Source: Asticcacaulis sp. ZE23SCel15
GTDB lineage: Bacteria > Pseudomonadota > Alphaproteobacteria > Caulobacterales > Caulobacteraceae
Direction of reading: 5' to 3'
DNA length: 64,000 nt
Assembly: GCF_030505395.1 (NCBI RefSeq)
Contig: NZ_CP130044.1
Location: forward strand, 3,023,001-3,087,000
Part shown: one piece after another, positions 1 to 23,563 of the stretch
Layout: every line of letters begins with the position of its first letter
Position numbering within the stretch: position 1 is the first letter of the stretch
The notes under the pieces: generated by a model
The model's input: only the letters and a program-made list of their open reading frames with translations
The model's database searches: none
What the model was told of the DNA's origin: nothing
Made by a program: the position numbers and the translations under genes

Positions 1-425
1 TAAATGATCTCTGCCAGGCCGGGAAAGTCCGTGACCGGGCGACCATTATTCAACAGAAGACCGGTAAGCCTGTAAAATTCGAAATCACTGAACACACCCG
101 GTTGTCGGTTGAAAGACTGCTCGCGCAATTACCTAGTGGCGGCTCAGGGCACCTCTTCCCCGGCCGATCAAAACACCGGCCTCATATTTCCACAAGACAG
201 TATTCTCGGATCGTGCACACTTGGGTCGAGAGTATCGGACTGGAGACGACGATGTATGGAACCCATACTATGCGTCGAACGAAAGCGTCACAGCTATATC
301 GAAAGACAGGAAACTTACGAGCAGTGCAACTCCTCCTGGGTCATACCAAGCTGGAAAGCACGGTGAGGTATCTGGGCATCGAGGTTGATGACGCTCTGGA
401 ATTGGCCGAGCAGATCGATCTTTGA
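1..425 (+). CDS. Tyrosine recombinase (mini-integrase), C-terminal part, cut by the window edge
   Basis: The frame is open from base 3 to a TGA ending at 425, so about 140 residues of the C-terminal end are visible and the start lies outside the window. The HTMRR stretch is the HxxR box of tyrosine recombinases, LLGHTKLEST the following conserved box, and the Tyr in VRYLGIEVDDAL the likely nucleophile. The sequence resembles the stand-alone integrases of about 200 residues that are common in Alpha- and Gammaproteobacteria and lack the N-terminal SAM-like arm-binding domain; that comparison is from memory. Such enzymes often sit with accessory DNA, which fits the small orphan gene and accessory loci that follow. 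The catalytic Arg of box I would lie upstream and cannot be checked. Confidence 0.85.
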   Translation, partial: NDLCQAGKVRDRATIIQQKTGKPVKFEITEHTRLSVERLLAQLPSGGSGHLFPGRSKHRPHISTRQYSRIVHTWVESIGLETTMYGTHTMRRTKASQLYRKTGNLRAVQLLLGHTKLESTVRYLGIEVDDALELAEQIDL

Positions 426-884: not shown

Positions 885-920
885 GACCCTATGAAAACGA
901 GCCACATGTAAGAACTATAA

Positions 921-970
921 CAAATTAGCTACTCTCCCGATTTAAGGCAGAATTTCTAATTTGCAAATTA
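921..970. promoter_or_regulatory. Cluster of CAAATTA half-sites including a perfect 14-base palindrome
   Basis: CAAATTAG at 921-928, CTAATTTG at 956-963 and CAAATTA at 964-970 form an inverted set; 957-970 (TAATTTGCAAATTA) is a perfect palindrome. A related CTAATTT recurs near 1022-1028. The cluster lies in the AT-rich segment just upstream of the first organosulfur gene and looks like a multi-site operator or promoter region. AT-rich DNA makes short palindromes easier to find by chance. Confidence 0.4.
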
Positions 971-1134
971 ACACAGAATTAGTAGGAATAAAAACACGCC
1001 GACCATATGAATGGGGCGCTACTAATTTCGTGGCCGGACGTCAACGTCGCCGTATCCCCATCATTCAGGTCTGAGCAGCGCCCATGTCATGGTGCGCGAC
1101 CTCGGACTTCAGCGATTTAGAAAGGCTCATTATC

Positions 1135-2226
1135 ATGGGCAACCCTTCCGGCATTCGCCTTGACGGCGCATATGAAATTCCAAACCTGTGGTACACACGC
1201 TGCCCGGTGCCGACACCACTGGGACTGGCCGTACAACTGGGCTATTTTCGCGATGAATTTACCTCTGACGGGCTTGAACTGAAATCGCTTCAGGAAAGCC
1301 TTGATCCGGCCGTCATAAAATCGCATTTTGATCACACCCTGCAAAACTCATTTCGTCAGGGCGGAAATATTCCGGCGATCTGGGCCAAGGCTAATGGCCG
1401 CGACACGCGCGTGATCGGTCTGAACTGGACGGATGAATCGCTGCTGATTATCACCCTGCACGGCTCCGGCATCCGCACGATTAAAGACCTGAAGGGCCGC
1501 AGATTGGCCCTGCCCGTCAATCCGGGCAGCATAGACTTCAACCGCGCCACGGCACTTCGGGCCTATTACAAGGCGCTGGAACTGGAGGGGCTTGGCCTTA
1601 AGGACGTTGAACTATTTGATATTTTGGCCCCGGCCGCGATTGCGGTTGGCTCAGACGTTGACACGTCCGGCCACCGCATCCGCAGACGTTCAGGTTACTT
1701 TGCCGAAATCAAAGCCCTGCTTAACGGTGAGGTTGATGCGATCTTCGTCAAGGGCGTGTCCGGCCTTGAAATCACCCGCGCGCTGGCGGCTCACATTGTC
1801 ACCGACATCGGCTTTCATCCCGACCCGAAGGTGCGCATTAACAATGGTGCGCCGCGTACCCTGACGGTCGATTCCGAACTGCTTGAGGCCCGCCCTGATC
1901 TGGTCGCCCGCTTCCTTAAACGTGTGGTCGAAGCCGGGGACTGGGCGCGTCAGCATCCGAATGAGACCCATGACTTCATTGCCCGTGAGACCTCATCCTT
2001 CCCCGATCTGGTGCGCGCGGCCTACGGCGAAAATGTTCACCACAACCTGGACACTTACCTGAATGATGAGGCCATTAACGCCTTGTCCGATTTCAAGGAT
2101 TTCCTGTTCGAACATGGCTTCTTGAAATCCAATTTTTCCGTGCCCGACTGGATCTCCAGAGTGCCGTTCGAGCGGCTGGAAGCCGACAGCGCTTCTATTC
2201 AAGCTTCTGGCCGCATCCCTGCATAA
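1135..2226 (+). CDS. DszB-type sulfinate desulfinase-like protein 1
   Basis: A 363-residue protein without signal peptide or lipobox. It has the periplasmic-binding-protein fold seen in NMT1/SsuA proteins, but its N-terminus matches DszB (2'-hydroxybiphenyl-2-sulfinate desulfinase): Cys23 in TRCPVP, His64 in SHFDH and Arg74 in FRQGGNIP fall where DszB has its catalytic Cys27, His60 and Arg70 (alignment from memory). DszB cleaves an aryl C-S bond, releasing sulfite in the cytoplasm. It would routinely be annotated as an ABC substrate-binding protein; the missing export signal and the intact triad argue against that. It opens the organosulfur locus and has a paralogue at 10285. Start chosen for AAAGG nine bases upstream. 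Substrate unknown; a sulfinate or related organosulfur compound is inferred. Confidence 0.75.
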   Translation: MGNPSGIRLDGAYEIPNLWYTRCPVPTPLGLAVQLGYFRDEFTSDGLELKSLQESLDPAVIKSHFDHTLQNSFRQGGNIPAIWAKANGRDTRVIGLNWTDESLLIITLHGSGIRTIKDLKGRRLALPVNPGSIDFNRATALRAYYKALELEGLGLKDVELFDILAPAAIAVGSDVDTSGHRIRRRSGYFAEIKALLNGEVDAIFVKGVSGLEITRALAAHIVTDIGFHPDPKVRINNGAPRTLTVDSELLEARPDLVARFLKRVVEAGDWARQHPNETHDFIARETSSFPDLVRAAYGENVHHNLDTYLNDEAINALSDFKDFLFEHGFLKSNFSVPDWISRVPFERLEADSASIQASGRIPA

Positions 2227-2230
2227 ATAT

Positions 2231-2246
2231 CCCGTCACAAGACGGG
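2231..2246 (+). terminator. Short hairpin between desulfinase 1 and the receptor gene
   Basis: CCCGTC and GACGGG form a perfect 6-base stem with an ACAA loop directly after the stop codon. There is no U-run, so partial termination, RNA processing or mRNA stabilisation are all possible. It may set different expression levels for the cytosolic enzyme and the outer-membrane receptor. Confidence 0.4.
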
Positions 2247-2273
2247 TCATAAATAACGAAAAGTAATATCCCA

Positions 2274-4778
2274 ATGACGACCTCCCCGAACGTCGTGCAG
2301 GCCTCTGCGCGCCGCACCCTGTGGCTTGCCTCGGCGGCCACCCTGTCCCTGATTACCGCGCCCGCCTTTACTCAAAAAGCGTTTACGCAAGACCTTTTGC
2401 TCGCCTCCGCCGATGATGTGGCGCAATCCGTGACCCGCGAAGCTCAGGCCGAAAAAGACCTGAAAAAAGACGACCGCGAAGACCGCATCGAAACCATCGT
2501 CGTCACCGCCAATAAGCGCTCGGAAAGCGTCCAAAAGGTGCCGACCGCCATTTCCGTGGTCGGCGGTGCCCAGTTGGAACGTAATGAAATCCGCTCGGCC
2601 GGCGATGTCGTGCGCTTTATCCCCAACGCCTCGGCCGCTCAGACCGAGTCGCGCAACCGTCCGCGCTGGTTCATCCGCGGCGTCGGCTCCAACGATCCGG
2701 GCGCCAATGTCGTCAATCCCGTCGGCGTCTATATCGACGAAGTGTATTTGAATGCCCCTTGGTTCCAGGCCTTCCCGGCCTTTGACCTTGACCGGGTCGA
2801 AGTCCTGCGTGGCCCGCAAGGCACCCTGTGGGGCAAGAACACGGTTGGTGGCGCGATCCACTATATTTCGCGCAAGCCTCAGTTTGAGACCGGCGGCTAT
2901 GCCCGCGTCGGTGTCGGCAATCTTGATGCCTATAACGCTCAGGGCGCTGTGACCGGCCCGGTCAGCGAAAACATCGCCGCGCGCCTGTCGTTTAGTCTGG
3001 AAAACCGTGGCGGGGTCGCCACCAACAATGTCACCGGCGAAGACGATTTCGGCAAGGTCAAGGACGCCGCCCTGCGCTTTCAGTTGCTGGGTAAGGTCTC
3101 TGATAATATTGAAGTCCTGGCCTCAGTACGCGCCCGCAATTCCGACGGCACGCCGATCGCCCGTTACATTGAGCCCGCCTTCCCCGATAACGCCACATTC
3201 AAGGGCGCATCGGCGCCTGCTGATGACTATGGCAACACCCCGACCAATGCGCCGGATGTCGGATCATCTAACGTCGACGGCTCGTCCCGCACCGACCAAA
3301 AGGGGGCTACCTTCACCGTCAACTGGACGCCGGGTGATTACACTTTCACCTCGATCACCGCCTATGATGACGGCCAGCAAGTCTCGAAATCCGATGGTGA
3401 TTTCACGGCGTTCGAAGGCTCACGCTCCTATGCGGATATCCAGAGCACCCAAGTCACGCAGGAGTTCCGCATCACCTCGCCGCGTGATGACCGCTTCAAC
3501 TGGATCGCCGGGTTTCATTATTTCTATGAGGATTTCTCATCCAATTCCTCAACCGCCACCCTGCAGACCACGGCTTATCTTGATCGCGGCACCGGGGCTC
3601 AGCGCTGGCGCCACACCTATTTCCAGAACGTGAAATATGATCAGGAAGCCAAGTCCTACGCTTTGTTTGGATCGGGCACCTATAACTTTACCGGCAAGTT
3701 CTCGATCACTGGTGGCCTGCGCTATACGACCGAACAGCGTGACGCTAAGATCGACATCCTGAACGGTCTGGGCGAAGCCTCGACCCGCCGCCTGAACACG
3801 GTAGATCCCGCCACCGCCGCGACCACCGCCAAGCCGCTGATTACCTTTATCAATACCGGCCAGTGGTGGCTACGGTCAGCGGTGACCTCATCGGCCCCGT
3901 ATCAGCCCTATGTGTCGGAACCTTCCAAGACCTGGAACCGCTGGACGTGGGATATAACCCCGCAATATAAGGTTTCCGACGATATCCTGTTGTACGCCAA
4001 GCACGCCCGTGGTTTCCGCTCCGGCACCTTTCAGGCCAGCGCCACCCAGTCCAACCAGTTTGATCCGAGCGGTATTGAGCCCGAAGACCTCTATTCCTAC
4101 GAAGGCGGCGTAAAATCGCAGTGGTGGGATAAGCGCGTGCGCGTCAACCTGTCGGCCTTCTATTACGACTACAAAAAGGCGCAGGTGCTGGTGCAGGGCG
4201 TGCCCATCGTCACCGGCGGGACCACCGCCTTTGCCGCGCGCCTGATCAATGCTCAGGGCTGGTCGAAGGGGATCGAGCTTGATATCTCGGCCAAGCCCAC
4301 CCCGAACCTGCGCCTTGATGCGGCACTCGGCACGCTCGATACCGAATATACGCAAGACTTCATCCCCAACAACCCCAATACCGGCCTGCTGTTCGGCAAG
4401 GGTAATGAGTTCACCCGCGCGCCGAAGTTCTCCGGCACGGTCGGGGCGGAATACCGCATCGCGACCAGCTTTGGGGACGTCACGCTGGCCACCGACTGGA
4501 GCTATCGCACCTCACAGTGGTTCACCGTTAATGCCCAGGAAAGCGATCCCACCAAGCTCGATTATCTGGTGTCTCAGTATCAGAAACAAAAAGGTTATGC
4601 GCTCGGCAATGCCCGCGTCACAGCCGCCATTGGCGATGATCTGGAGGTTTCAGCCTATGTCAGCAACCTGACTGATGAGACCTACAAAATCCTGACCTTC
4701 GGTACCCAGCAGGGCGCACGTCTGACCACCTATGGCGACCCGCGCACCTATGGCGTGACCGTCTCGGCCAAGTTCTAA
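2274..4778 (+). CDS. TonB-dependent outer-membrane receptor (organosulfur locus)
   Basis: An 834-residue TonB-dependent receptor. The N-terminus has a basic and hydrophobic signal region (about 13-33). IETIVVTANKR at about 72-82 is the TonB box and start of the plug; RPRWFIRGVGSNDPG and VEVLRGPQGTLWGKNTVGGAI are typical plug motifs. The rest is a beta-barrel ending in an aromatic Phe (SAKF). The family imports large or scarce ligands using the proton-motive force via TonB/ExbBD. Its place between a desulfinase gene and an SsuA-like lipoprotein suggests that it brings a sulfonate, sulfinate or other bulky organosulfur compound into the periplasm. The Shine-Dalgarno sequence is weak. The substrate cannot be read from sequence. 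Confidence 0.9.
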   Translation: MTTSPNVVQASARRTLWLASAATLSLITAPAFTQKAFTQDLLLASADDVAQSVTREAQAEKDLKKDDREDRIETIVVTANKRSESVQKVPTAISVVGGAQLERNEIRSAGDVVRFIPNASAAQTESRNRPRWFIRGVGSNDPGANVVNPVGVYIDEVYLNAPWFQAFPAFDLDRVEVLRGPQGTLWGKNTVGGAIHYISRKPQFETGGYARVGVGNLDAYNAQGAVTGPVSENIAARLSFSLENRGGVATNNVTGEDDFGKVKDAALRFQLLGKVSDNIEVLASVRARNSDGTPIARYIEPAFPDNATFKGASAPADDYGNTPTNAPDVGSSNVDGSSRTDQKGATFTVNWTPGDYTFTSITAYDDGQQVSKSDGDFTAFEGSRSYADIQSTQVTQEFRITSPRDDRFNWIAGFHYFYEDFSSNSSTATLQTTAYLDRGTGAQRWRHTYFQNVKYDQEAKSYALFGSGTYNFTGKFSITGGLRYTTEQRDAKIDILNGLGEASTRRLNTVDPATAATTAKPLITFINTGQWWLRSAVTSSAPYQPYVSEPSKTWNRWTWDITPQYKVSDDILLYAKHARGFRSGTFQASATQSNQFDPSGIEPEDLYSYEGGVKSQWWDKRVRVNLSAFYYDYKKAQVLVQGVPIVTGGTTAFAARLINAQGWSKGIELDISAKPTPNLRLDAALGTLDTEYTQDFIPNNPNTGLLFGKGNEFTRAPKFSGTVGAEYRIATSFGDVTLATDWSYRTSQWFTVNAQESDPTKLDYLVSQYQKQKGYALGNARVTAAIGDDLEVSAYVSNLTDETYKILTFGTQQGARLTTYGDPRTYGVTVSAKF

Positions 4779-4792
4779 GGGAGGATATTCGT

Positions 4793-5902
4793 ATGTCCAC
4801 GACCATGTTCAGAGCACTTCCTCGGCGCACCCTTTTGACCGGCCTTATCGGCATCACAGCGGCCCTTGCGGCCTGCGGCGAAAAACCGGCCTCAGCGCCT
4901 GCCGCCAAGCTGCCGGAAACGGTGACCATCGCGGCTATCTCCTACACCTATCAGGGCAAGCCGACCTTTAATGGGCTGTCTCAGGTGGTGATCAATCAGG
5001 GATGGCTTGAAGGGGAGCTTAAGAAAAAGGGTGTCGCTCTGAACTGGTTGCCGGTGCCAACTTCGGTCGGCGGCCCGCTGATCAACGAAGGCTTTGCGGC
5101 CAAGCGCATCGACTTTGCGGGCTACGGTGATTTTCCGGCCCTGATCGCCAAGTCGGGGGGCGTGGACATCCGCGCCATCACCTCCTCAGGTCAGGGCAAC
5201 AATGCCTATCTGATTGTGCGCAAGGGGCTGGAGGCCAAATCCATCGAGGATTTAAAGGGCAAGTCGCTGGCTATCCATCGCGGCCGTCCGTGGGAGCTGA
5301 CACTGGCCAAGCTGCTGGATTCCAAGGGCCTGAAGCTTACCGATTTCAAGATCTATAATCTCAACCCGCAGGCCGCCTATTCAGCACTGGCGGCCGGTAA
5401 GGTCGATGCGGTCTTTACCCTGTCCGAGGCCATCCTTCAGGAAGACAAGGGGGCCGGCACCATCATCTGGTCGACCAAGTCCAATCCCGAATGGAAGATG
5501 CGCACCGGCCTGTTTGCCCGCACCGAGTTCACGACGCAAAACCCGGAGCTGACCCAATTGGTGGTCAACGCCTACATCAAGGCGGCGCACTGGGCCTCAC
5601 AGCCGGAAAACCGCGCCGCATTCCTTGAGCTGGCGTCGCGCGGCAATAATCCGACCAGCGTGCTGGAACGCGATTACGCTAACGAAGGCGGTGACTGGAA
5701 CGACCATTTCTCGCCCATCATTGATCAGGGCTTTATCAACCATTTCGATGATGTGTCAAAATACACCTTTGAGAACAAGCTTGTCCAAAAAGAGGTCGCC
5801 AGCCGCGATTTCATCGACCCAACCTTTGTCAATCAAGGCATTGATGAACTGGGCCTGACAGGGTTCTGGAAAGAAACACCCGTCACAGGTCCGGTTCAAT
5901 GA
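4793..5902 (+). CDS. ssuA: SsuA-type sulfonate ABC transporter binding lipoprotein
   Basis: A 369-residue periplasmic binding protein of the SsuA/TauA/NMT1 class. The signal sequence has twin arginines (PRRTLLTG) and a lipobox ending LAAC, so Cys28 is the probable lipidated residue. Motifs such as IDFAGYGDFPALIA and EDLKGKSLAIHRG are typical of aliphatic-sulfonate binding proteins. It lies 14 bases after the receptor gene and overlaps the next start codon by four bases (ATGA). Unlike the two DszB-like proteins in this locus it has an export signal, so it is the true binding component for the SsuBC-type transporter downstream. Exact ligand unknown. Confidence 0.85.
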   Translation: MSTTMFRALPRRTLLTGLIGITAALAACGEKPASAPAAKLPETVTIAAISYTYQGKPTFNGLSQVVINQGWLEGELKKKGVALNWLPVPTSVGGPLINEGFAAKRIDFAGYGDFPALIAKSGGVDIRAITSSGQGNNAYLIVRKGLEAKSIEDLKGKSLAIHRGRPWELTLAKLLDSKGLKLTDFKIYNLNPQAAYSALAAGKVDAVFTLSEAILQEDKGAGTIIWSTKSNPEWKMRTGLFARTEFTTQNPELTQLVVNAYIKAAHWASQPENRAAFLELASRGNNPTSVLERDYANEGGDWNDHFSPIIDQGFINHFDDVSKYTFENKLVQKEVASRDFIDPTFVNQGIDELGLTGFWKETPVTGPVQ

Positions 5903-7158
5903 GTTCGGCCCCGGAGTCCTTATCCCCCTCTGGTGCCGGAACGTCCGAGGCGGCGGCCCCGGCTAATCCTCCCCTGGCCGCCGCCTCACCGGCTGTTTTT
6001 CTGGCCGGGTTCTCAACCCTTGCCCTGATCAGCGGCATCTCGATCGGTCTGGCTAAGGTCGTCACCCAGTTTTTCGCGCTGGCCATCGGTGCCGATGCCT
6101 TTCAGATCGGCCTGATCATGGCGATGGAATCGATTGGCATGGTTCTGGTCACCGTCCCCGCCGGTTTCATCATCGCCCGCTTTGGAGCCCGCAGGGTTTA
6201 CGCCATCGCCTCATTAGGCCCGCTAATCGTCAATCTGCTGCTGCCCTTCGCCAGTGGAGTCATCGGTCTGGCGATCGGTCGTCTGGTGATCGGGTTGTGC
6301 ATTCCATTCCGGATCGTGTCGATGAACTCGACCTTTCTGGCCCAGCTTAACCGCATCGGGGTGGGTAAGGCCGGTTGGTATCGCGGCGCGCTGACGGCAG
6401 GTCTGGCCCTGATCGGCCCGGCGCTGGCCACCGTACTTACCCAGCATGTCGACTATGTCTGGTCGTTCGCCATTATCGCCGCCCTGTTTGGCATTATGGC
6501 GGTGGGGTCGCTCTATTTCTTCACCGACGAAGCGCCCTCTACGCCCGCCCCCAAAGCCTTAAGCGCATCCGGCATCGCCTCTGAGGCCCGCACCTTACTG
6601 CGCAACAAAGACGTATCAGAAAGCTGCGTCATCGAATTTATCTCCTCGGCCACAGGATCATTGTTTGCCGCCTTCATCATCGTTGTGGCCGCCCACCTGA
6701 ACGGCCTCACCAAAGAGGACGGCGTCCATATCATGCTGTTCCACGGGGCGATGACGGTGCTGGCCCTGTTCGGAGCCGGCCGCCTGACGCGCACGCTCAA
6801 CAAATGGATCGCCTACGGGATCGGTTTGGTTCTGGGGACACTGGCCCTGATCATTCTGGGTACGGCCAGCGGGTTTGCCGCCCTTGCCATCGGGGCTGTC
6901 CTGCTCAGCGCGGGTCAATCCATCGTCCACCTCGTCAACATGCGGCTGTTGAGCACCCATCCCGGCGAAAAATCCAAAGTGTCGGGCCTGTTTAACCTGT
7001 CGTCCATGACCGGCTCCAGCGTCGGGGCGCTGGCGGGCGGGATCGTGTCCAAATTCGCCGGTGTCCAGTCGATCTACCTGTTGTGGCTGCCGGTGCTGTG
7101 GCTGGCCGCAGGCTACCTGTTCTTCGTTCTCAAAGGGACCAACCCTCATGAAGCCTGA
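5899..7158 (+). CDS. Major facilitator superfamily transporter
   Basis: A 419-residue polytopic membrane protein with about twelve hydrophobic segments in two halves, separated by a charged loop near residues 205-235. RFGARRVYAIASLGP after the second segment is the MFS loop 2-3 signature. It is translationally coupled to ssuA (ATGA overlap) and overlaps the next gene by 11 bases, so it is part of the same operon. MFS carriers are unusual inside an Ssu-type operon; it may export sulfite or the desulfurised product, or provide a second uptake route. Direction and substrate are not evident. Confidence 0.85.
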   Translation: MSSAPESLSPSGAGTSEAAAPANPPLAAASPAVFLAGFSTLALISGISIGLAKVVTQFFALAIGADAFQIGLIMAMESIGMVLVTVPAGFIIARFGARRVYAIASLGPLIVNLLLPFASGVIGLAIGRLVIGLCIPFRIVSMNSTFLAQLNRIGVGKAGWYRGALTAGLALIGPALATVLTQHVDYVWSFAIIAALFGIMAVGSLYFFTDEAPSTPAPKALSASGIASEARTLLRNKDVSESCVIEFISSATGSLFAAFIIVVAAHLNGLTKEDGVHIMLFHGAMTVLALFGAGRLTRTLNKWIAYGIGLVLGTLALIILGTASGFAALAIGAVLLSAGQSIVHLVNMRLLSTHPGEKSKVSGLFNLSSMTGSSVGALAGGIVSKFAGVQSIYLLWLPVLWLAAGYLFFVLKGTNPHEA

Positions 7159-8005
7159 GCTAGAGCGCATTCCGAAAAGTGTGAAGCGGTTTTCGGATTC
7201 AAATGCGCGTAAAAGTAAAATTTCAGAGCGCCGATCTGATTCAGTCAGATCGGAAAACGCTCTGAAACTCATCCTGTCGGTCGGATCGCCTCTGCTGCTG
7301 CTTATCGTGTGGCAGGCCGTGACCGCGTTTAAACTGTTCCCGCCCGAAGTGCTGGTCTCGCCTACCGCCGTCGTATCCGCCTTTGGCGAAGTCATCACCA
7401 CCGGTGAACTGCAGCGCCACCTGTCGGAAAGCCTGACCCGTCTGGCAGGCGGCTTTACCGCCGGTGCGTCGCTGGGGCTGCTGTTCGGGCTGGCGCTGGC
7501 GCTATCGAAAACGGTGGAGCGGGTATTCGGCCCGACGTTTCAGGCCCTGCGTCAGGTGCCGGTTCTGGCCTTTATCCCCATGCTAATCCTGCTACTGGGC
7601 ATCGACGAAGTGTTCAAGATCATCATCATCGCCAAGGCCGCCTTTTTCCCCGTGGCCTTGGCCGCCTACGACAGCGTTAAGGGCGTGCCGAAATCCTATT
7701 TTGAGGTGTCGTCGCTGTACCGGGCGCCGTGGTGGGTGCTGATCAGTAAAATCCTGATCCCCGCCACCATCCCCAATATTCTGGCCGGCGTGCGCCTGAG
7801 CCTGACCCGCTCGTGGCTGGTGCTGGTGGCGGCGGAACTGATCGTGGCCGATAGCGGTCTGGGCCAGATGATGGAGATGGGCCGTCAGATGTTCCGCCTC
7901 GATATCGTCATGGTCGGGGTGATCGTCGCCGGGGTCATCGGCTTTGGCCTTGACCGCCTGTTTCAGCTTTTGCAAGCGCACGCCCTGCGCTGGAAGACCG
8001 CGTGA
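7148..8005 (+). CDS. ssuC: SsuC-type ABC transporter permease 1, with a repeat-derived N-terminal extension
   Basis: A 285-residue inner-membrane permease of the SsuC/TauC/NrtB family. The transmembrane part starts near residue 42; GVPKSYFEVSSLYRAP is the EAA loop that contacts the ATPase. The ATG at 7148 has AGGGA upstream and overlaps the MFS gene by 11 bases. Residues from about 5 to 40 are highly charged and encoded by a palindromic repeat (7162-7267) that stays in frame, so this permease has an N-terminal tail that its relatives should lack. It works with SsuA, the second permease and SsuB to import the substrate at the cost of ATP. Confidence 0.85.
   Translation: MKPELERIPKSVKRFSDSNARKSKISERRSDSVRSENALKLILSVGSPLLLLIVWQAVTAFKLFPPEVLVSPTAVVSAFGEVITTGELQRHLSESLTRLAGGFTAGASLGLLFGLALALSKTVERVFGPTFQALRQVPVLAFIPMLILLLGIDEVFKIIIIAKAAFFPVALAAYDSVKGVPKSYFEVSSLYRAPWWVLISKILIPATIPNILAGVRLSLTRSWLVLVAAELIVADSGLGQMMEMGRQMFRLDIVMVGVIVAGVIGFGLDRLFQLLQAHALRWKTA
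7162..7267. repeat. Palindromic repeat element inserted inside ssuC
   Basis: About 106 bases made of two hairpins. The first has outer arms GCGCAT (7165-7170) / ATGCGC (7203-7208) and inner arms TCCGAAAA (7171-7178) / TTTTCGGA (7190-7197). The second has outer arms TTTCAGAGCG (7221-7230) / CGCTCTGAAA (7258-7267) and inner arms CCGATCTGA (7231-7239) / TCAGATCGG (7245-7253). The motif around TTCCGAAAAGTGTGAAGCGG is familiar from small dispersed repeats in alphaproteobacterial genomes, usually intergenic. Here it lies within a coding sequence and reads through without a stop. I see no second copy in this window. Confidence 0.85.
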
Positions 8006-8013
8006 GGCCGATC

Positions 8014-8802
8014 ATGACATTAAAAACCCTCAACTTAAACGCCTTCAAACCGGTCTGGCTACTGGGCCTGATCCCGCCTGTCCTGTTCCTTTTGTGGTGG
8101 GATCATGAAGCCGCCAAGGGTGGCGCCAATGCTCTGGCCTTCGTATCTCTGGCACAGGTAGGTCAGGCCCTTATCGATATGTTTGCCACCGGTGAACTGG
8201 GCCTGTCCTATGGCTCCAGCCTTGGCCGCGCCTTGTCGGGCCTGCTGATCGGCGGCGGTATCGGCACACTGGTCGGCATTGCCATGGGCCTGTCAAAGCC
8301 GGTCGAATGGGCCGCGTCGCCCATCTACAATAGCTTTCGTCAGGTGCCGATTTTGGGCTGGCTACCGCTGATCGGCCTGTGGTTTGGCTCAGGGGATCTG
8401 TCTAAGCTGATCATCGTCGCCCTGTCGGCCTTTTACCCGACCGTGCTCTATACCTTTGAGGGGCTAAAGCAGGTCGAGGCCCGCCTGCTCGATGTCGGCA
8501 GTGTGTACCGCCTCAACGGCTGGCAGACCTTCTGGCGCATCCAGTGGCCCGCTGCCTTGCCCTCCATCTTTACCGGCCTGTTTCAGGCACTGGCCTTCAC
8601 ATGGATTTCAACCATCGGGGTTGAGCTTCTGTTCTCCTCCGGTGCCGGTCTGGGTGCCCTGATGCAGCAGGCCCAGCTACAGGCCCGCCTTGATATTGTT
8701 CTGGTCTGCATCCTGTTTGTCGGCCTCACCGGCTTTGCCATTAATTTTCTCATCAAACGCCTCAGCCAGCACGTCTTAAGCTGGCGCAGCATCAGAGCTT
8801 AG
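8014..8802 (+). CDS. ssuC: SsuC-type ABC transporter permease 2
   Basis: A 262-residue second permease of the same family. VEARLLDVGSVYRLNG is the EAA loop. The ATG at 8014 is preferred because TGAGG lies six bases upstream; a GTG at 8002 would overlap the previous stop codon. With permease 1 it probably forms a heterodimer, whereas SsuC and TauC transporters normally use two copies of one permease. It lies directly before the ATPase gene. Confidence 0.87.
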   Translation: MTLKTLNLNAFKPVWLLGLIPPVLFLLWWDHEAAKGGANALAFVSLAQVGQALIDMFATGELGLSYGSSLGRALSGLLIGGGIGTLVGIAMGLSKPVEWAASPIYNSFRQVPILGWLPLIGLWFGSGDLSKLIIVALSAFYPTVLYTFEGLKQVEARLLDVGSVYRLNGWQTFWRIQWPAALPSIFTGLFQALAFTWISTIGVELLFSSGAGLGALMQQAQLQARLDIVLVCILFVGLTGFAINFLIKRLSQHVLSWRSIRA

Positions 8803-8812
8803 GAATCCACGT

Positions 8813-9655
8813 ATGGACTACGTTCCCCACTCTCAAATCCCCGGCCACAAGGTCAAACAGACCGGCGCCGTCTCGCTCAAAGGCATCAAGAAGCAGTTCA
8901 ATTTTAAGGACCGCGAACTGAAGGTTCTGTCGGAGTTTTCACTTGATGTGCAACCCGGTGAATTTGTCTCAATCGTTGGCCCGTCCGGTTGCGGTAAATC
9001 CACCTTATTGCGCCTGATTGCGGGACTTGACGATACCTATGACGGCACCATCGCCCTGGATGGTCAGCGCGTCGCCGGCACGTCTCTGGAGCGCGGCCTG
9101 GTCTTTCAGGATCACCGCCTGTTTCCGTGGATGACGCTGGAAGACAATATCGCTCTGGCCCTCACTAACCGTCAGATTTCAAAGGATGCCAAGGCCAAGC
9201 TGGTCGCTGATCATATCGCTTTGGTCGGTCTCAAGGGCTTTGAAAAAGCCTTCCCGCATCAGCTTTCCGGCGGCATGGCCCAACGCGCGGCCATTGCGCG
9301 CTCACTGGTCAATGAGCCCAAGGTGCTGCTGCTGGATGAGCCGTTCGGCGCGCTCGATGCCCTGACCCGCGTGCACCTCCAAACCGAGCTTCAGCGCATC
9401 TGGCTGGCGCAGGGGTCAACCATGATCATGATCACCCATGATGTCGAAGAAGCGCTCTATCTCGGTGACCGCGTGGTGGTCATGCAGGCCAATCCGGGCC
9501 GCATCACCCATACCGTCGATGTCAATCTGCCTCATCCGCGTGACCGCGCCTCACCAGTTCTGCATAGGCTGAAAGATGAGATTCTGGCCGAGTTGACCAA
9601 TGTGCCTGAGCCTTCAAATCCGATCGTGCGCCTGATCAAGGGAGACGACCAATGA
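8813..9655 (+). CDS. ssuB: SsuB-type ABC transporter ATP-binding protein
   Basis: A 280-residue ATPase of the nitrate/sulfonate/taurine group. Walker A is GPSGCGKST at 56-64, the Q-loop is VFQDHRLFPW, the signature is LSGGMAQRAAIARSL and Walker B is VLLLDEPFGALD, followed by the H-loop in MITHDVEEAL. All ATPase residues appear intact. It energises the two permeases encoded just upstream. The stop codon overlaps the next start (ATGA), which ties uptake to the flavin-dependent enzymes downstream. Confidence 0.92.
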   Translation: MDYVPHSQIPGHKVKQTGAVSLKGIKKQFNFKDRELKVLSEFSLDVQPGEFVSIVGPSGCGKSTLLRLIAGLDDTYDGTIALDGQRVAGTSLERGLVFQDHRLFPWMTLEDNIALALTNRQISKDAKAKLVADHIALVGLKGFEKAFPHQLSGGMAQRAAIARSLVNEPKVLLLDEPFGALDALTRVHLQTELQRIWLAQGSTMIMITHDVEEALYLGDRVVVMQANPGRITHTVDVNLPHPRDRASPVLHRLKDEILAELTNVPEPSNPIVRLIKGDDQ

Positions 9656-10272
9656 GCTTCGATATCTTGACCAAATGGCCCACTACAACCCGGCAAAGCG
9701 ACTATCCCGTCGATCCGATATTTACCGGCCGCTGGTCATCGCGCGCCCTGACCGGAGAGCCGATCCCGGAGACCGATCTCTATACCTGTTTCGAGGCGGC
9801 GCGCTGGGCCCCTTCGGCCTTTAATGCTCAGCCGTGGCGGTTCATCTATGCCCACCGCGATGGCCGCGACTGGGATGCGCTGTTCTCTCTCCTCAACGCC
9901 AAGAACCAGTCCTGGGCGCACAAAGCCTCAGCCATAATCTTTGTCGTCTCGCGCAAGGATTTTATATTTCAGGATCAAACCGTGCCGGTCGGCAGTCATT
10001 CGTTCGACGCCGGTGCCGCCTGGGGCGCATTCGCCCATCAGGCTCATTTGCTGGGATATTCGACCCGCGCCATCGGCGGCTTTGACCGTAAGGCCGCGCC
10101 TGACATTTTAAGCGTACCTGACAACCACCATGTCGAAGCCGCCATAGCCATTGGCCGCCGTGCGGGGCTCGATGACCTGCCGGAGACCTTTCACGCGCAG
10201 GAAACCCCGTCGATGCGACGCCCCTTACAGACCTTCGTCTTCGAAGGCCGCTTTCACTCATCACATGATTAG
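9652..10272 (+). CDS. Nitroreductase-family flavoprotein, probable reduced-flavin supplier
   Basis: A 206-residue protein of the FMN-dependent nitroreductase family. The sequence ARWAPSAFNAQPWRF near residues 49-63 is the family's FMN-binding signature, and AWGAFAHQAHLLGYSTRAIGGFD is the typical later segment. These enzymes use NAD(P)H to reduce FMN-bound substrates. SsuD-type monooxygenases need FMNH2 from a partner reductase (SsuE, MsuE or DszD), and no other reductase is encoded here, so supplying reduced flavin is a reasonable inference; direct reduction of a substrate is the alternative. It overlaps ssuB by four bases. Confidence 0.8.
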   Translation: MSFDILTKWPTTTRQSDYPVDPIFTGRWSSRALTGEPIPETDLYTCFEAARWAPSAFNAQPWRFIYAHRDGRDWDALFSLLNAKNQSWAHKASAIIFVVSRKDFIFQDQTVPVGSHSFDAGAAWGAFAHQAHLLGYSTRAIGGFDRKAAPDILSVPDNHHVEAAIAIGRRAGLDDLPETFHAQETPSMRRPLQTFVFEGRFHSSHD

Positions 10273-10284
10273 GAGGAACTGACC

Positions 10285-11352
10285 ATGCCGTCCCGCCTTG
10301 CCCCTTTGGTACCATCCGACACCGTATTCATCACCCGCTGCCCGGTACCGACCGCCACGGCCATCGCCCTCAATCAGGGCTGGTTTGCCGAAGCTTTTAG
10401 CGATCACGGTTTCAAGACCGAAACCTTACAGGATTCCAACGATCCGAAACTGCGGTCCCAGCATTTCTACCATGACCTTAAGGCCCTGTTCCGCGAAGGC
10501 GGCAATGTCCCGGCCTTCTGGTCGCGGGCGCGCAATCTGGCCACCAACGGTGAAGACCACACCCTCGTCATCGGCCTGACGTGGGTGGATGAAACACAAC
10601 TCTTATTGGCGCGGCCCGGTTCGGGAATCCGCGACCTGTCCGACCTGAAGGGCAAGACGCTCGGCCTGTCGAACGCCGCGGGCGCGGTTGATATCTGGCG
10701 GGCTATGGGTTTGCGCGGCTATGAGACCTCGCTTAATCTGGCGGGTTTGACCTTTGACGATGTCACCCTGAAAAACCTGACGGCACCGGAGGTTAACTGG
10801 CAAACCCCTCGTCGCGGCGGGACATGGTCGCAGGCCAGCGAGCAGGCTCTGCTGAACGGCGATGTCGATGTCATCTACGCTAAGGGTGCGCCCGCCGTCG
10901 CGCTAAAGGAAAAGCATGGGCTGGACGTTGTGCTTGATATCAACACCCTGACCGATCCGGCTTTGCGCATCAATAACGGCACGCCGCGCCCGATCACTAT
11001 CCACAAGCATCTCCTGAGCGATCATCCCGAACTGGTGAAGCTTTATCTGCAAATCCTCAACCGCGCGTCGGCCTGGGCCAAAAACCATTCAGACAGCGTG
11101 GCCGATATCATCGCTTTCGAGACCGGCACCACCACCGATGCCGTTCACAAAGGCTATGGCGCAGGGCTGTCCCACACCCTCGATGTCAATCTGTCGAAGG
11201 CGCGCATTGATGCCTTTCAGGATCAGGCCGATTTTCTGCATAGCCACGGCCTGATCGATGCCCCTGTCAATGTTCGCAACTGGATCGCCGCCGAACCGCT
11301 TCAGGCGGCGCTTAATGATCCGCTGCCCCTCACTGCCAATAAAGCTGCTTAA
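10285..11352 (+). CDS. DszB-type sulfinate desulfinase-like protein 2
   Basis: A 355-residue paralogue of the protein at 1135, again without signal peptide. Cys19 in TRCPVP, His60 in SQHFYHD and Arg70 in FREGGNVP correspond to the DszB catalytic Cys, His and Arg. The two copies share SGIR-LSDLKG-type and INNGTPR motifs but differ widely elsewhere, so they are old paralogues and may act on different substrates or as a pair. AGGAGG lies just upstream, the strongest ribosome-binding site of the locus. The gene sits between the flavoprotein and the two luciferase-like monooxygenases, which suits a desulfinase that acts after oxidation. Without biochemistry a sensor or cytosolic binding role cannot be excluded. 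Confidence 0.75.
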   Translation: MPSRLAPLVPSDTVFITRCPVPTATAIALNQGWFAEAFSDHGFKTETLQDSNDPKLRSQHFYHDLKALFREGGNVPAFWSRARNLATNGEDHTLVIGLTWVDETQLLLARPGSGIRDLSDLKGKTLGLSNAAGAVDIWRAMGLRGYETSLNLAGLTFDDVTLKNLTAPEVNWQTPRRGGTWSQASEQALLNGDVDVIYAKGAPAVALKEKHGLDVVLDINTLTDPALRINNGTPRPITIHKHLLSDHPELVKLYLQILNRASAWAKNHSDSVADIIAFETGTTTDAVHKGYGAGLSHTLDVNLSKARIDAFQDQADFLHSHGLIDAPVNVRNWIAAEPLQAALNDPLPLTANKAA

Positions 11353-11363
11353 GGAACATTCTG

Positions 11364-12332
11364 ATAAGTCTTGAATTTTACTGGTATCTGCCGACCGCCG
11401 GCGATGGCCGCTCGAAAGCCTTCGATCAACTGGCACCTGCCAAGGGTACGCCCAACGCCACCATCCGCGATCTGCGTAAAAGCCATTACACCAATATCGA
11501 CTACATCACTCAGGTCGCCCGCGCTGGCGAACTGACTGGCTTTGATGGCCTGATAGCACCCGATGACGTGGCGGGCGAAGCGTCATGGATCGTAGCCGGC
11601 CTGATCGCCCGCGACATCAAGCGCCCGACAATCATCGCTGAGTTTTCCCCCGGCGCGGGCTCAGCCGTCTATTTCGCCAAGAAGGCCGTGACCTTTCAGC
11701 GCTACAGCGGCAACCGTCTGGGCTGGTCGCTAGCCACGTCAACGGATGCGGCCACCCGCAAAGCCCTGGGTGATTTCGTCACTGACGGCGATATTGCACG
11801 ACGTTTGGAAGAGCTTCTGATCGTCTCCAAAGGCGTCGGATCATCCGATGATTTTACCTTTAAGGGTGAGTTTTTCGAGGTCTTAAAAGGCGGCTTTGGC
11901 GGGCCGTTATCAGGCTGGCAATTGCCGGAAATCAGCCTGACAGGCGAAAGTTCCGAAGCGCTGGAGATTTCAGCCGGTTACGGCGATGTCCATGTCTTTG
12001 AACTGGGCACCGCTGATCTGGCCACCAAAATCGCCCGCCTGAAAGCGCTGACCGCCACCAAGGGCCGCACCCTTAAAATCGCGCTTAAGGCCCGCATCTT
12101 TGCCCATGATGACCTTGATCGCGCCGCATTAGAGGCCAAACGCTCAGGCTTTGAAGACAACTCTCAAACCTTGACCGGCGATTACGACAGCCTGGCCGAA
12201 GATCTCCTCCTGCTGGGCGAACTCGGCGTCGATCGTTTTCAACTGTTCGCCCCTCACAGCCTTGAGACCGCCTACCGCATCGGCGAGCACGTCCTGCCGC
12301 GCATCCGGCAAGCCCTCCGCAAAGCCGCATAA
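11364..12332 (+). CDS. Luciferase-like (SsuD-family) FMNH2-dependent monooxygenase 1, no canonical start codon
   Basis: The frame encodes about 322 residues of the bacterial-luciferase family, beginning SLEFYWYLPTAGDGRS, which matches the conserved beginning of SsuD-type enzymes (E. coli: FWFLPTHGDG). There is no in-frame ATG, GTG or TTG until GTG 11568, which would remove the first beta strand and 68 residues. The homologous start position holds ATA (11364), eight bases after AAGGA. Either ATA is used, or the start is mutated or misread; CTG 11361 is a weaker option. The protein is shorter than SsuD (about 380) and lacks the loop that carries the LWAG...LVRGG motif. It is followed 12 bases later by the second monooxygenase. 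Confidence 0.75.
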   Translation: MSLEFYWYLPTAGDGRSKAFDQLAPAKGTPNATIRDLRKSHYTNIDYITQVARAGELTGFDGLIAPDDVAGEASWIVAGLIARDIKRPTIIAEFSPGAGSAVYFAKKAVTFQRYSGNRLGWSLATSTDAATRKALGDFVTDGDIARRLEELLIVSKGVGSSDDFTFKGEFFEVLKGGFGGPLSGWQLPEISLTGESSEALEISAGYGDVHVFELGTADLATKIARLKALTATKGRTLKIALKARIFAHDDLDRAALEAKRSGFEDNSQTLTGDYDSLAEDLLLLGELGVDRFQLFAPHSLETAYRIGEHVLPRIRQALRKAA

Positions 12333-12344
12333 GGAGTTACAGAT

Positions 12345-13496
12345 ATGTCCATTGATTTTTTCTGGCGACTGCCGACCCACGGCTGCTCGACCTCGGTGCG
12401 TAATCCCAGCCTGACCCGCGGCGACTGGGTGCCCCTGACCGAAGGCAACCAGGCCCCCGGCCTTTATGACGGTCGGCCCGATGGTTCGACCTATATCGAC
12501 CATGTCGCCCAGATCGCCAAGGCGGCCGAGATTTCCGGCTTTCACGGCGGCCTGATCCCGTCATTCCCCATGACTGACGATCCGTGGGTGATTTCGTCCC
12601 ACCTGGCGCGTGAAACCAAGACTTTCCGGTTCATGATCGCCTTTCAGCCGGGCTTTATCAATCCGGTAGAAACGGCACGCCTGACCGCCTCCCTGCAACG
12701 GGCGACCGGCGGGCGGGCCCTGTTCAACATCATCACCGGCGGCGGTGGCCCTTCGCAACTGTGGTGGGGTGACAGCTTCGCTCACGATGACCGCTATGGC
12801 CGCACGACCGAGTTTTTGGACATCCTCAAAGGCGTCTGGAAAGAAGGCCCCTATAGCCAGAACGGCAAGTTCTATAGCGTCGAAAATGGCCAGTTACCAG
12901 CGGCGCTGGCCGCCACCGACCTTCCGGAAATCTATTTCTCCGGGTCATCGGACGCGGCCTTGCAATCGGCCTCAAAACACGCCGACTATTACCTGTCGTG
13001 GCTGGAACCGTTTGAGCAATTGAAAGCCAAGTTCGGCGCGGTAAAGGAAAAAACTGACGCTCTGGGTCGCAAGATCAAGTGCTCGGTCCGCGTTGATCTG
13101 ATCGCCCGACCGACCGAAGAAGAAGCCTGGGCCGACGCCAAGGCCGGTTTTGAGGCCACCGCCCACAAGCGTAGCGATAGCTTTAAACAGGCTTCCAATT
13201 CCGTCGGTGCTGCCCGTCAGGCGGCTTTCAAAGCCTCGGATGCCAAACACTATGATGAGCTGATCATCGGGCCCAACCTGTGGACTGGTTTCTCGCTCCT
13301 GCGCGGCGGTCCGGCGCTGGGCATCGTCGGCTCCTATGAGCAGTGCGCCCAGAAACTGGATGAATTGATCGCCCTTGGCACCGACAGTTTCATCCTCGCC
13401 GGTACCCCGCACCTCGAAGAAGCTTACCGCGTCGGCGAAGAAGTCCTCCCCCTCGTCCGGGGCCGTCAGGCCTCATTGTCCATTGCTGCTGAATAA
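12345..13496 (+). CDS. SsuD-like alkanesulfonate monooxygenase with altered active site
   Basis: A 383-residue luciferase-like monooxygenase, close to SsuD in length and in motifs such as FFWRLPTHG, PNLWTGFSLLRGG and PHLEEAYRVGEE. SsuD uses FMNH2 and O2 to split an alkanesulfonate into an aldehyde and sulfite. Against E. coli SsuD (from memory), Arg226 and Arg297 are kept as Arg249 and Arg320, but Cys54, His228 and Tyr331 are replaced by Thr77, Asp251 and Thr354. The enzyme therefore probably acts on another organosulfur substrate or with different proton transfer. AAGGAG lies upstream. It follows monooxygenase 1 with a 12-base gap; the two may work as a pair. Confidence 0.87.
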   Translation: MSIDFFWRLPTHGCSTSVRNPSLTRGDWVPLTEGNQAPGLYDGRPDGSTYIDHVAQIAKAAEISGFHGGLIPSFPMTDDPWVISSHLARETKTFRFMIAFQPGFINPVETARLTASLQRATGGRALFNIITGGGGPSQLWWGDSFAHDDRYGRTTEFLDILKGVWKEGPYSQNGKFYSVENGQLPAALAATDLPEIYFSGSSDAALQSASKHADYYLSWLEPFEQLKAKFGAVKEKTDALGRKIKCSVRVDLIARPTEEEAWADAKAGFEATAHKRSDSFKQASNSVGAARQAAFKASDAKHYDELIIGPNLWTGFSLLRGGPALGIVGSYEQCAQKLDELIALGTDSFILAGTPHLEEAYRVGEEVLPLVRGRQASLSIAAE

Positions 13497-13508
13497 GGAA
13501 ACATGCTC

Positions 13509-14213
13509 ATGTCTACATTGTCTCAAACCGTGCTCGACTTTGTTGAACAGGTTAAAACCGATGCCGCGATTGCGTTTAAGGGTCTGCGCGACACCCACAC
13601 CATCTCCCCGGCGGGTACCGTCAATTTCGTTCAGCGGGTCCCCGATGAGCACCTGATCGTCTCGATCGGCTATCCCGGCCCGTTCGCGCCCAACTCTGAG
13701 CTGAAACCTGCGGTCTATGATTTTGACGGTAACCTGCTTTTGGGTGAGGCCAAAAACTCCGGTGGTGGTGGGCGCTACCTGCCGATCTTTCGTAAGCATG
13801 ACGATATCACCACCGTCAGCCACGTCCACTCGGTCTATTTAGGCGCATGGTCGCAAAGCCACCGCACCTTGCCTATCCGCTATGTACCGGTGCAGCGCTG
13901 GACCCGCATCCGTGAACTGCCGGTCTATATCGACCGTCGTCAGGGTGAGGCCAACTACATCCTTGAGCGCCTTGAGGAGGACAATAGCCACTTCGCCATT
14001 CTTGAGGCCAATGGCGGCTCAACCGTGTGGGGCCGCAAGGGTATTCTGGCGCTGGCCAACACCATCGTAAACCTCGAAGAAGGCGCGCGCCTGCAAGCGA
14101 TTGCTGAAACCCTAGGCGGCTCCAAACTCTATGGTCCCGGCGTACTAGAACAGCAATGGAAGATGAGCGGCCTGTGGCGCCCTGAAGATGAAGTAGCGGT
14201 CGCCGCTGAGTAA
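13509..14213 (+). CDS. Class II aldolase/adducin-like protein
   Basis: A 234-residue protein of the class II aldolase/adducin fold. His105 and His107 in VSHVHSVYLGAW form the usual metal-binding HxH pair. Near the C-terminus, where aldolases have a third metal ligand in a NHG motif, this protein reads ANGGSTVWG, so that His seems replaced by Gly; the chemistry may be changed or lost. The ATG at 13509 is preferred over 13503 because AGGA is then nine bases away. As the last gene of the organosulfur operon it may process the aldehyde or carbon skeleton left after desulfonation. This role is inference from position. Confidence 0.78.
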   Translation: MSTLSQTVLDFVEQVKTDAAIAFKGLRDTHTISPAGTVNFVQRVPDEHLIVSIGYPGPFAPNSELKPAVYDFDGNLLLGEAKNSGGGGRYLPIFRKHDDITTVSHVHSVYLGAWSQSHRTLPIRYVPVQRWTRIRELPVYIDRRQGEANYILERLEEDNSHFAILEANGGSTVWGRKGILALANTIVNLEEGARLQAIAETLGGSKLYGPGVLEQQWKMSGLWRPEDEVAVAAE

Positions 14214-20354: not shown

Positions 20355-20360
20355 TGAGGA

Positions 20361-22541: not shown

Positions 22542-22601
22542 GCCCCACACTCCTTGAAAATCGACGCCTCTAACGTAACGTCACACAAATCAGATTAAAA
22601 T

Positions 22602-23549: not shown

Positions 23550-23563
23550 CATTGGATAAAGTC

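Follow-up and report, generated by a model that had tools for sequence, protein, structure and literature searches.

A twelve-gene operon in Asticcacaulis sp. ZE23SCel15 very probably brings an organic sulfur compound into the cell and removes its sulfur. It lies in a stretch of 64,000 nt (GCF_030505395.1, NZ_CP130044.1 positions 3,023,001 to 3,087,000), hereafter called the window. The gene set, its conservation, the active-site residues and the sulfur-poor composition are shown directly, and we consider the following role likely: under sulfur starvation, the operon would serve to import a bulky, oxidised organosulfur compound, which would be desulfurised in the cytoplasm while its carbon goes unused. 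In many soils most of the sulfur is organic and, to our knowledge, little is known about the uptake of bulky organosulfur compounds by Gram-negative bacteria.

According to the ORF list, the operon spans positions 1135-14213, with all twelve genes on the + strand. This layout had been predicted, as had four-base overlaps, which were seen between the genes for binding protein and MFS carrier (5899-5902), permeases A and B (8002-8005), and ATPase and nitroreductase (9652-9655). Scans with Pfam and with NCBIfam each backed the named classes for 10 of the 12 proteins (NMT1-fold, BPD permeases, MFS, nitroreductase, two Bac_luciferase, class II aldolase, TonB receptor); with the ATPase assigned from its motifs, the predicted classes were borne out. 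Neither scan matched a DszC-like acyl-CoA dehydrogenase (10 of the 12 proteins were covered by Pfam, the other two being the receptor and the ATPase), which agrees with the predicted absence of such a gene from the locus. The features are as follows.

890..1083, + strand: conserved upstream region; core AGAATTTCTAATTTG ... AATTAGTAGGAAT at 949-989
1135..2226, + strand: dszB1, predicted DszB-like desulfinase, 363 aa; 2DE2 E=4.4e-13; C27/H60/R70/G73
2274..4778, + strand: TonB-dependent receptor, 834 aa; PF00593 and NCBIfam TonB receptor models
4793..5902, + strand: SsuA/NMT1-type binding lipoprotein; PF09084 55.7 bits; TIGR01728 112.5 bits, below the SsuABC importer cut-off of 163.5; LAAC lipobox, read by eye in the translation
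5899..7158, + strand: MFS carrier; PF07690 86 bits; best NCBIfam model TIGR00900 (H+ antiporter), below cut-off
7148..8005, + strand: ABC permease A, start uncertain; PF00528; in tblastn, homology to most relatives starts at about residue 39
8002..8802, + strand: ABC permease B, SsuC/TauC/SaoP-like; PF00528; NF040733 and NF008470 below cut-offs
8813..9655, + strand: ABC ATPase; Walker A motif GPSGCGKST and ABC signature LSGGMAQR, taken from the translation and not from a family library; relatives 58-99% identical
9652..10272, + strand: nitroreductase-fold flavin oxidoreductase; PF00881; 2FRE, an NAD(P)H-flavin oxidoreductase, E=8e-58
10285..11352, + strand: dszB2, predicted DszB-like desulfinase, 355 aa; 2DE2 E=1.5e-16; quartet present
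11364..12332, + strand: LLM1, luciferase-like protein of 322 aa, predicted to lack the SsuD/MsuD lid; PF00296
12345..13496, + strand: LLM2, luciferase-like monooxygenase with predicted lid; 7JV3 MsuD E=5e-66; 1NQK SsuD E=2e-64
13503..14213, + strand: class II aldolase-like protein; PF00596 and family alignment

The strongest new evidence for a role in sulfur starvation is the amino acid composition. The median Cys+Met content was 0.9% for the operon proteins and 3.3% for the 41 other ORFs of the window, called mechanically at a length of at least 150 aa (Mann-Whitney p=8e-6). Neither the TonB receptor (834 residues) nor LLM1 has any Cys or internal Met. That the operon proteins hold so little sulfur suggests that they work when the cell is sulfur-starved. 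Outer-membrane receptors are generally sulfur-poor (median 1.7% Cys+Met), and the operon receptor ties for the lowest content among 65 receptor matches. Counted over the aligned parts of its relatives, the receptor has no Cys and no Met in eight of nine genomes and a single Met in the ninth, at identities down to 35%; the receptors of three related clusters (35-38% identical) have none, none and one. A habit of the family was rejected as the cause, because nine other receptors of the genome (23-26% identical) have 5-16 Cys+Met in the aligned part. The nearest paralogue (31% identical, L151) has none in its aligned part. As a separate observation, the genome encodes a second sulfur-free receptor at 2592104, which is absent from the matches listed for the operon receptor.

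The twelve-gene order was present in 6 of 25 Asticcacaulis genomes, the source genome included, and the flanks, compared over 4.7-11 kb upstream and 0.3-16 kb downstream, mostly differ between them. The 60 pairwise dN/dS values (12 genes, five genome pairs, G003 set aside) ranged from 0.013 to 0.225, and the genes are thus under purifying selection. Since five other genomes share the order and dN/dS is low, the operon is more than a chance grouping. We also compared 79 loci with DszB-like genes, namely 78 of the best 80 of at least 555 (a Streptomyces-rich set) plus the Sphingobium locus L054. A luciferase-like oxygenase adjoins the DszB-like genes in 75 of these loci versus none of 11 control stretches, and an ABC ATPase in 72 versus one. 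A TonB receptor like that of the operon occurs in only eight of these 79 other loci and in one of the 11 controls. Genes for a rhodanese and an FMN reductase lie beside the dszB2 orthologues of genomes G016 and G005, and tauD beside that of G016. Gram-negative records contain many DszB-like genes; one scan of viral contigs yielded no relative of dszB2. An apparent DszB-LLM1 fusion in Rhodococcus sp. OK519 and two Actinomadura loci was discarded: the upstream part has no DszB match and, when frames were compared with the operon proteins, proved to be an out-of-frame open stretch.

The two luciferase-like proteins had been described as SsuD-type oxygenases, which holds in that both belong to the luciferase-like class and LLM2 is a relative of SsuD/MsuD. 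Both score, however, far below the cut-off of the SsuD equivalog TIGR03565 (LLM1 90.0 and LLM2 265.2 bits; cut-off 518.2). Against TIGR03860, the NtaA/DmoA model whose family presumably includes DszA, they reach 18.5 and 74.8 bits (cut-off 279.7) and are not DszA-like by this measure. LLM2 also carries Thr, Asp and Thr in place of Cys 54, His 228 and Tyr 331 of SsuD, which we take to be active-site residues. In an alignment of 12 of the 25 best LLM1 matches, a single Nocardia row and the first 14 LLM2 matches above 50% identity, LLM1 shows a deletion of about 50 residues relative to MsuD/SsuD and LLM2. By this alignment the deleted part corresponds to the lid over the active site described in PMC8234197, which LLM2 would retain. 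The proper start of LLM1 lacks ATG, GTG or TTG and reads ATA, where five of five relatives have ATG; a sequencing error is possible. Decay was considered and rejected: few operon genes exceed the dN/dS of LLM1 against four relatives (0.127-0.225), yet these values are far below 1, and LLM1 is therefore probably functional despite the ATA codon.

Class II aldolases have three metal-binding His residues. In the alignment of the aldolase-like family (23 rows, two duplicating others), the H-x-H motif is kept in all 23 rows, whereas the third His (N-H-G) is changed to N-G-G in 22, the operon protein among them, and retained only in L044. The operon protein thus lacks one of the three ligands of a class II aldolase, and it matched no solved structure at E<=0.001.

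The original prediction knew of no described pathway that joins DszB and Ssu systems with TonB-dependent import. The novelty that this implies for DszB with Ssu-type transport is overstated: two actinobacterial clusters already combine a DszB-like protein, Ssu-type ABC genes and SsuD-like oxygenases, and both go up when organosulfur replaces sulfate. No TonB receptor is named for either cluster. The first is the benzothiophene cluster bdsABC of Gordonia terrae C-6, where eight genes (GTC6_01585-01620, bdsABC included) were 29-54-fold up by RT-qPCR and 92-188-fold up by RNA-seq on benzothiophene (PMC3868597). By gene number it encodes a binding protein, permease, ATPase, desulfinase, FMNH2-dependent monooxygenase and alkanesulfonate monooxygenase, all benzothiophene-induced. 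Judged by gene order and the annotation in that paper, the operon follows the bds order over 4793-14213, with MFS carrier, second permease and nitroreductase inserted, and the bds-type classes themselves occupy 4793-13496; loci of Rhodococcus (L133) and Nocardia (L126) are ordered like this block. The bds cluster has one desulfinase, the operon two, and TonB receptor, MFS carrier and nitroreductase are not listed for bds. The second cluster is that of Rhodococcus qingshengii IGTS8, in which the products of peg4799, 4801, 4802, 4804 and 4806 were more abundant in dibenzothiophene culture (PMC8557817). They correspond by order and annotation to SsuA, SsuB, DszB-like, SsuD and SsuA, and peg4799-4806 lack a named receptor; the table used has no entry for peg4800, 4803 and 4805.

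Like dszABC of the 4S pathway, the operon combines a DszB-like desulfinase bearing Cys27/His60/Arg70/Gly73 with an adjoining flavin-dependent oxygenase and has Cys/Met-poor enzymes. Unlike dszABC, it has no DszC, its DszB-like proteins are only 28-29% identical to the canonical one, and LLM2 is SsuD-like and not of the NtaA/DmoA family. With ssuEADCB and msu it shares the class of ABC importer and LLM2 as SsuD/MsuD relative; it differs in its DszB-like proteins, receptor and lid-less partner, in a nitroreductase replacing SsuE, and in scores below the equivalog cut-offs. The plasmid locus of Sphingobium sp. TomTYG65 (AP027331, L054) also has a TonB receptor, LLM1, LLM2, nitroreductase, ABC genes, an aldolase-like protein and, in this case, three DszB-like genes. 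It differs in being split into divergent units, in lacking an MFS match and in additional genes, which encode a sigma-54-type activator, an NtaA/DmoA oxygenase and ABC-exporter-like proteins. The operon is new as a Gram-negative variant in which the TonB receptor is free of sulfur, the two DszB-like proteins belong to different clades, a putatively lid-less oxygenase lies beside a full one and the aldolase-like protein has a changed metal site. Among the open-licence papers listed in literature searches, none was seen to treat the Asticcacaulis operon or a DszB locus that includes a TonB receptor. A precedent for such a receptor is sftP of Pseudomonas putida S-313, which adjoins sulfate-ester genes. 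PMC7142613 links some sphingomonad TonB receptors to sulfonated aromatic amines.

The likeness to bds raises the question of a full thiophene-type locus, in which the substrate would enter unoxidised and LLM1 would perform the first S-oxidation, as proposed for Gordonia BdsB. Desulfinase, oxygenase and oxygenase follow each other in both, and in E. coli extract bdsABC, supplied with DszD, NADH and FMN, turned benzothiophene into o-hydroxystyrene (PMC3868597). We regard this as unlikely for the operon, which has no DszC-like gene and whose LLM1 lacks the lid by alignment; in addition, uptake through a TonB receptor and an ABC importer points to a polar substrate.

Ordinary sulfonate use, with LLM2 as an SsuD-like sulfonatase and the DszB-like proteins as cytoplasmic NMT1-fold binding or carrier proteins instead of enzymes, is a further rival reading. 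Their best models are binding-protein families (SsuA_fam in NCBIfam, NMT1 in Pfam), whereas their best solved relative is DszB (2DE2, 28-29% identity). Both carry the quartet of nucleophile Cys27, His60, Arg70 and Gly73 listed for DszB in PMC12168087, of which the binding lipoprotein has only the Gly. The quartet is kept in 103 of 110 DszB-like rows (18 of them Asticcacaulis, both operon proteins included), surveyed after setting aside matches aligned over <250 residues and the duplicate loci L060 and L061. The catalytic Cys is lost in the dszB2 orthologues of G005 and G016 and replaced by Ser in three Pseudomonas copies, and two Sphingobium copies lack His60. With such residues missing, certain members of the family may lack desulfinase activity, as sulfonate use would have it. 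In both operon proteins the catalytic Cys is the only Cys, in an operon poor in Cys, and DszB1 also has no internal Met; both DszB starts show, by eye, no visible export signal. Given also the three exchanged SsuD positions of LLM2, we consider sulfonate use to be quite improbable. A tree of 62 of the 112 surveyed rows and three dszB3 rows, with actinobacteria thinned, placed dszB1 and dszB2 (37% identical) in different clades and canonical DszB on a distant long branch. Import and oxidation of a sulfur-free compound (a siderophore, thiamine precursor or nitrate-type substrate) is very improbable: siderophore receptors are the best models of the receptor, a nitrate permease model matches the second permease and the NMT1/THI5 name comes from thiamine synthesis, but the NCBIfam models concerned all score below cut-offs, and the sulfur-poor proteins and sulfur-gene neighbours speak against it.

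The predicted sulfur scavenging is well supported by sulfur-poor proteins, an intact DszB site, sulfur-gene neighbours elsewhere and the published induction of like-ordered clusters. Within the sulfur-starvation role, we infer substrate, reaction order, FMNH2 supply, export and regulation. The TonB receptor would carry the compound across the outer membrane, and the binding lipoprotein with the two-permease ABC importer would bring it into the cytoplasm. The nitroreductase-type enzyme would reduce FMN and supply FMNH2 to LLM2, which, probably together with LLM1, would use O2 to break the C-S bond; a sulfone would yield a sulfinate, a sulfonate sulfite. The desulfinases DszB1 and DszB2 would hydrolyse two different sulfinates to sulfite, destined for cysteine synthesis, while the MFS carrier may export the desulfurised skeleton and the aldolase-like protein may act on a carbonyl product. 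The likeliest substrate is a sulfone or sulfonate; with a simple sulfonate, LLM2 alone would free sulfite and DszB would be unneeded, which counts against this scheme. More tentatively, the operon may exemplify a widespread and apparently undescribed desulfination module, in which two desulfinases of different clades act on two sulfinates and LLM1 and LLM2 form a sulfone-splitting heterodimer reminiscent of the luciferase pair LuxA/LuxB. The lid-bearing LLM2 would be the catalytic subunit and LLM1 its partner, the aldolase-fold protein with its changed metal site would finish the chemistry and, in Gram-negatives, a receptor selected for sulfur-free residues may precede the module. Sulfur-free TonB receptors would then predict organosulfur receptors from sequence alone.

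The operon offers a complete candidate route from the outer membrane to sulfite that is open to testing, and it extends predicted DszB-like desulfinases well past dibenzothiophene degraders. The absence of Cys and Met could help to link orphan TonB receptors with sulfur starvation. Further desulfinases would also be of interest to biodesulfurisation, in which DszB turnover is slow (PMC12168087).

The region 890-1083 is probably the promoter/operator region. No Rfam family reached its gathering score within the window, and RNA regulation was dropped as a candidate. A regulon search with the upstream motif was equally unproductive: GAATTTCTAATTTG was found once in the genome, allowing <=1 mismatch, and therefore no other target is predicted. 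The upstream blocks are conserved across seven aligned upstream regions, most weakly in G003; nine pairs of upstream flanks share 81-300 bp, with 775 bp in one of these pairs.

The observation of a 12-gene putative desulfurisation locus, as described in the original prediction, stands, and family scans bore out the gene classes named for it. The Asticcacaulis genome carrying it comprises one contig of 3.77 Mb. Four-base overlaps occur at three junctions of the operon, which reads as follows.

Window 1135-14213, + strand: operon of 12 genes, in the order dszB1, TonB receptor, binding lipoprotein, MFS carrier, two permeases, ATPase, nitroreductase, dszB2, LLM1 (luciferase-like), LLM2 (luciferase-like monooxygenase), aldolase-like gene

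The best reading of its role is scavenging under sulfate starvation. The substrate would enter through the TonB receptor and then the lipoprotein and ABC importer, the nitroreductase would furnish FMNH2, LLM2 with LLM1 would cleave the C-S bond oxygenolytically, the two DszB enzymes would perform desulfination, and the MFS carrier would export the skeleton. Since DszC is absent, the most probable substrate is one that has already been oxidised, for example a sulfone or a sulfonate.

For both DszB1 and DszB2, the best solved structure was DszB of the dibenzothiophene pathway (28-29% identity), and the operon's binding protein showed 18.5% identity to DszB. Cys27, His60, Arg70, and Gly73 were all kept in 103 of the 110 DszB-like sequences aligned to DszB, those of DszB1 and DszB2 among them; the binding protein kept the Gly alone. 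The exceptions were two solitary dszB2 orthologues, three Pseudomonas proteins with Ser at position 27 (stretches L131, L134, and L138; in L131 and L134 this copy adjoins a Cys-keeping one), and two Sphingobium proteins with Asp at position 60. The solitary orthologues adjoin FMN reductase, rhodanese, and luciferase-like genes.

L039:10814-11881 and L040:9923-10957: dszB2 orthologues with the catalytic Cys replaced by Asp or Gly

In the tree, dszB1 fell among proteins of Pseudomonas, Methylobacillus, and Sphingobium, and dszB2 grouped weakly (88/69) with an Acetobacter protein; canonical DszB formed a distant long branch of unsure placement. This separate grouping argues that the two genes are not a recent duplicate. 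The genome encodes a third DszB-like protein, of a type also present in other Asticcacaulis genomes, and the stretch around its gene (L046) gave no oxygenase or ABC match.

Contig 1516973-1517995 (L046:9973-10995), - strand: third DszB-like gene, 340 aa, one Cys, no internal Met

The nearest relatives of LLM2 are MsuD and SsuD. It carries Thr, Asp, and Thr at the positions aligned to the active-site residues Cys54, His228, and Tyr331 of SsuD. According to the alignment, LLM1 lacks about 50 residues, the lid among them. Bacterial luciferase consists of a lid-bearing and a lid-less subunit, and by this resemblance LLM1 and LLM2 can be read as a possible heterodimer. The deletion is common to the LLM1 proteins of Sphingobium, Actinomadura, and the Asticcacaulis genome G017, and a smaller one occurs in L126 (Nocardia), L133 (Rhodococcus), and L127 (Nonomuraea). 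The MsuD lid shuts over FMN and substrate (PMC8234197). The start codon of LLM1 is ATA (window 11364-11366), with ATG in G002, G003, G004, G006, and G009; it is a rare start, a mutation, or an assembly error. The aldolase-like protein has H-x-H in 23/23 rows and N-G-G for N-H-G in 22/23.

A scan of genome contigs yielded at least 555 relatives, of which the best 80 were kept; 78 of them, together with a Sphingobium plasmid, made up 79 loci outside Asticcacaulis. Compared with a small control of 11 stretches, seven of them around the third DszB paralogue, these loci contained a luciferase-like oxygenase in 75 cases (controls, 0), an ABC ATPase in 72 (1), a permease in 58 (0), the aldolase-like gene in 12 (0), a receptor like that of the operon in eight (1), and a nitroreductase in four (0). 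Several loci have ABC-exporter-like genes in place of the MFS carrier, and L106 has both. At E<=1e-40, the LLM1 profile matched 10 of 385 genomes of the class, this one included, four of which had two matches within 10 kb. In Rhodococcus L133 and Nocardia L126, the order is binding protein, permease, ATPase, DszB, two luciferase-like genes, and aldolase-like gene. The first oxygenase of L133 is LLM1-like; that of L126 has higher identity to LLM1 and a better E-value against LLM2.

Clusters of like gene order have been described. GTC6_01620-01585 of Gordonia terrae C-6 encode a binding protein, permease, ATPase, desulfinase (bdsA), monooxygenase (bdsB), alkanesulfonate monooxygenase (bdsC), hypothetical protein, and binding protein; benzothiophene induces 8/8 of these genes, and E. 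coli extracts with bdsABC plus NADH, FMN, and DszD gave o-hydroxystyrene (PMC3868597). In Rhodococcus IGTS8, peg4799 (SsuA), 4801 (SsuB), 4802 (DszB-like), 4804 (SsuD), and 4806 (SsuA) were raised in dibenzothiophene culture (PMC8557817). Likened by gene order and annotation, both clusters show the actinobacterial order of L133 and L126, and the window block from 4793 shows it too, with the MFS carrier, second permease, and nitroreductase inserted. These clusters reduce the novelty originally claimed for the locus; what deserves following up is its receptor free of sulfur, its pair of oxygenases, and its two desulfinases.

The sulfur-poor composition is a result beyond the original claims. Excluding the start, median Cys+Met content was 0.9% for the 12 operon proteins versus 3.3% for 41 other window ORFs (p=8e-6). 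The receptor (834 aa) and LLM1 (322 aa) contain neither residue, DszB1 has one Cys, and DszB2 one Cys and one Met; the permeases, ATPase, and MFS carrier are less extreme (1.9-2.6%). A low content of Cys and Met is also reported for the 4S enzymes in the IGTS8 paper (PMC8557817). The genome has 65 receptor matches (median 1.7%), and the operon receptor shares the lowest value with one other. Its aligned part is free of Cys and Met in 6/6 full operons, as are the 36-38% identical receptors from G017 and G008; the Sphingobium receptor (35%) has one Met there. However, outer-membrane receptors are sulfur-poor in general, which counts, like the less extreme values of the permeases, ATPase, and MFS carrier, against a special meaning, and since the nearest paralogue in the genome is likewise Cys/Met-free in the aligned part, the receptor's sulfur-poverty may be partly inherited. 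Two further TonB receptors are candidate sulfur-starvation receptors; ORF listings revealed no evident sulfur operon around them (L144, L151).

Contig 2592104-2593453 (L144, L206): TonB receptor, 0 Cys+Met in the whole protein
Contig 164506-165867 (L151, L207): TonB receptor, 1 Cys+Met in the whole protein

A dszB2 search of 61 genomes gave matches in 19, every one within Asticcacaulis. The gene-neighbourhood comparison proposed with the original prediction found the complete 12-gene order in 6 of 25 genus genomes (that of the window, G002, G003, G004, G006, and G009) and an almost complete set on the Sphingobium plasmid, where three DszB-like genes and an activator of sigma-54 type are present. 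G017 has a nine-gene form with dszB divergent from receptor-permease-permease-ATPase-binding protein-LLM1-LLM2-aldolase, an arrangement that G012 follows as far as the fetched stretch reaches. G008 shows a third form without LLM1 and LLM2 and with an NtaA-type oxygenase nearby, all that G015 retains is dszB1 and half of the receptor gene, its first part (L041:8479-10851), and in G005 and G016 the dszB2 orthologue adjoins other sulfur genes. With dN/dS values of 0.013-0.225, every gene of the operon shows purifying selection.

A tyrosine recombinase gene ends directly 5' of the operon, which may therefore be mobile.

Window 1-425, + strand: end of a tyrosine recombinase gene (L045:12802-13425, Phage_integrase match)

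When the upstream flanks of the full operons and of the G015 remnant were compared, eight pairs had 81-300 bases in common and the window/G004 pair 775; the G003 flank had no common stretch at the threshold used. The common stretches always end at the operon, and the flanks differ beyond them. In G004 and G002 (L034, L035), short same-orientation repeats lie in both operon flanks (87 bp at 83%, 56 bp at 91%); they may be of the dispersed kind or may have been left by a transfer. Elsewhere in the window, we observed a gene that looks like a STAND-type defence gene (15063-18191, - strand, 1042 aa; SIR2-like, NB-ARC, and weak TPR matches) and, at 19611-24058, grouped genes for a TonB protein, TonB receptor, DUF4198 protein, and EF-hand protein, perhaps a separate metal-uptake group.
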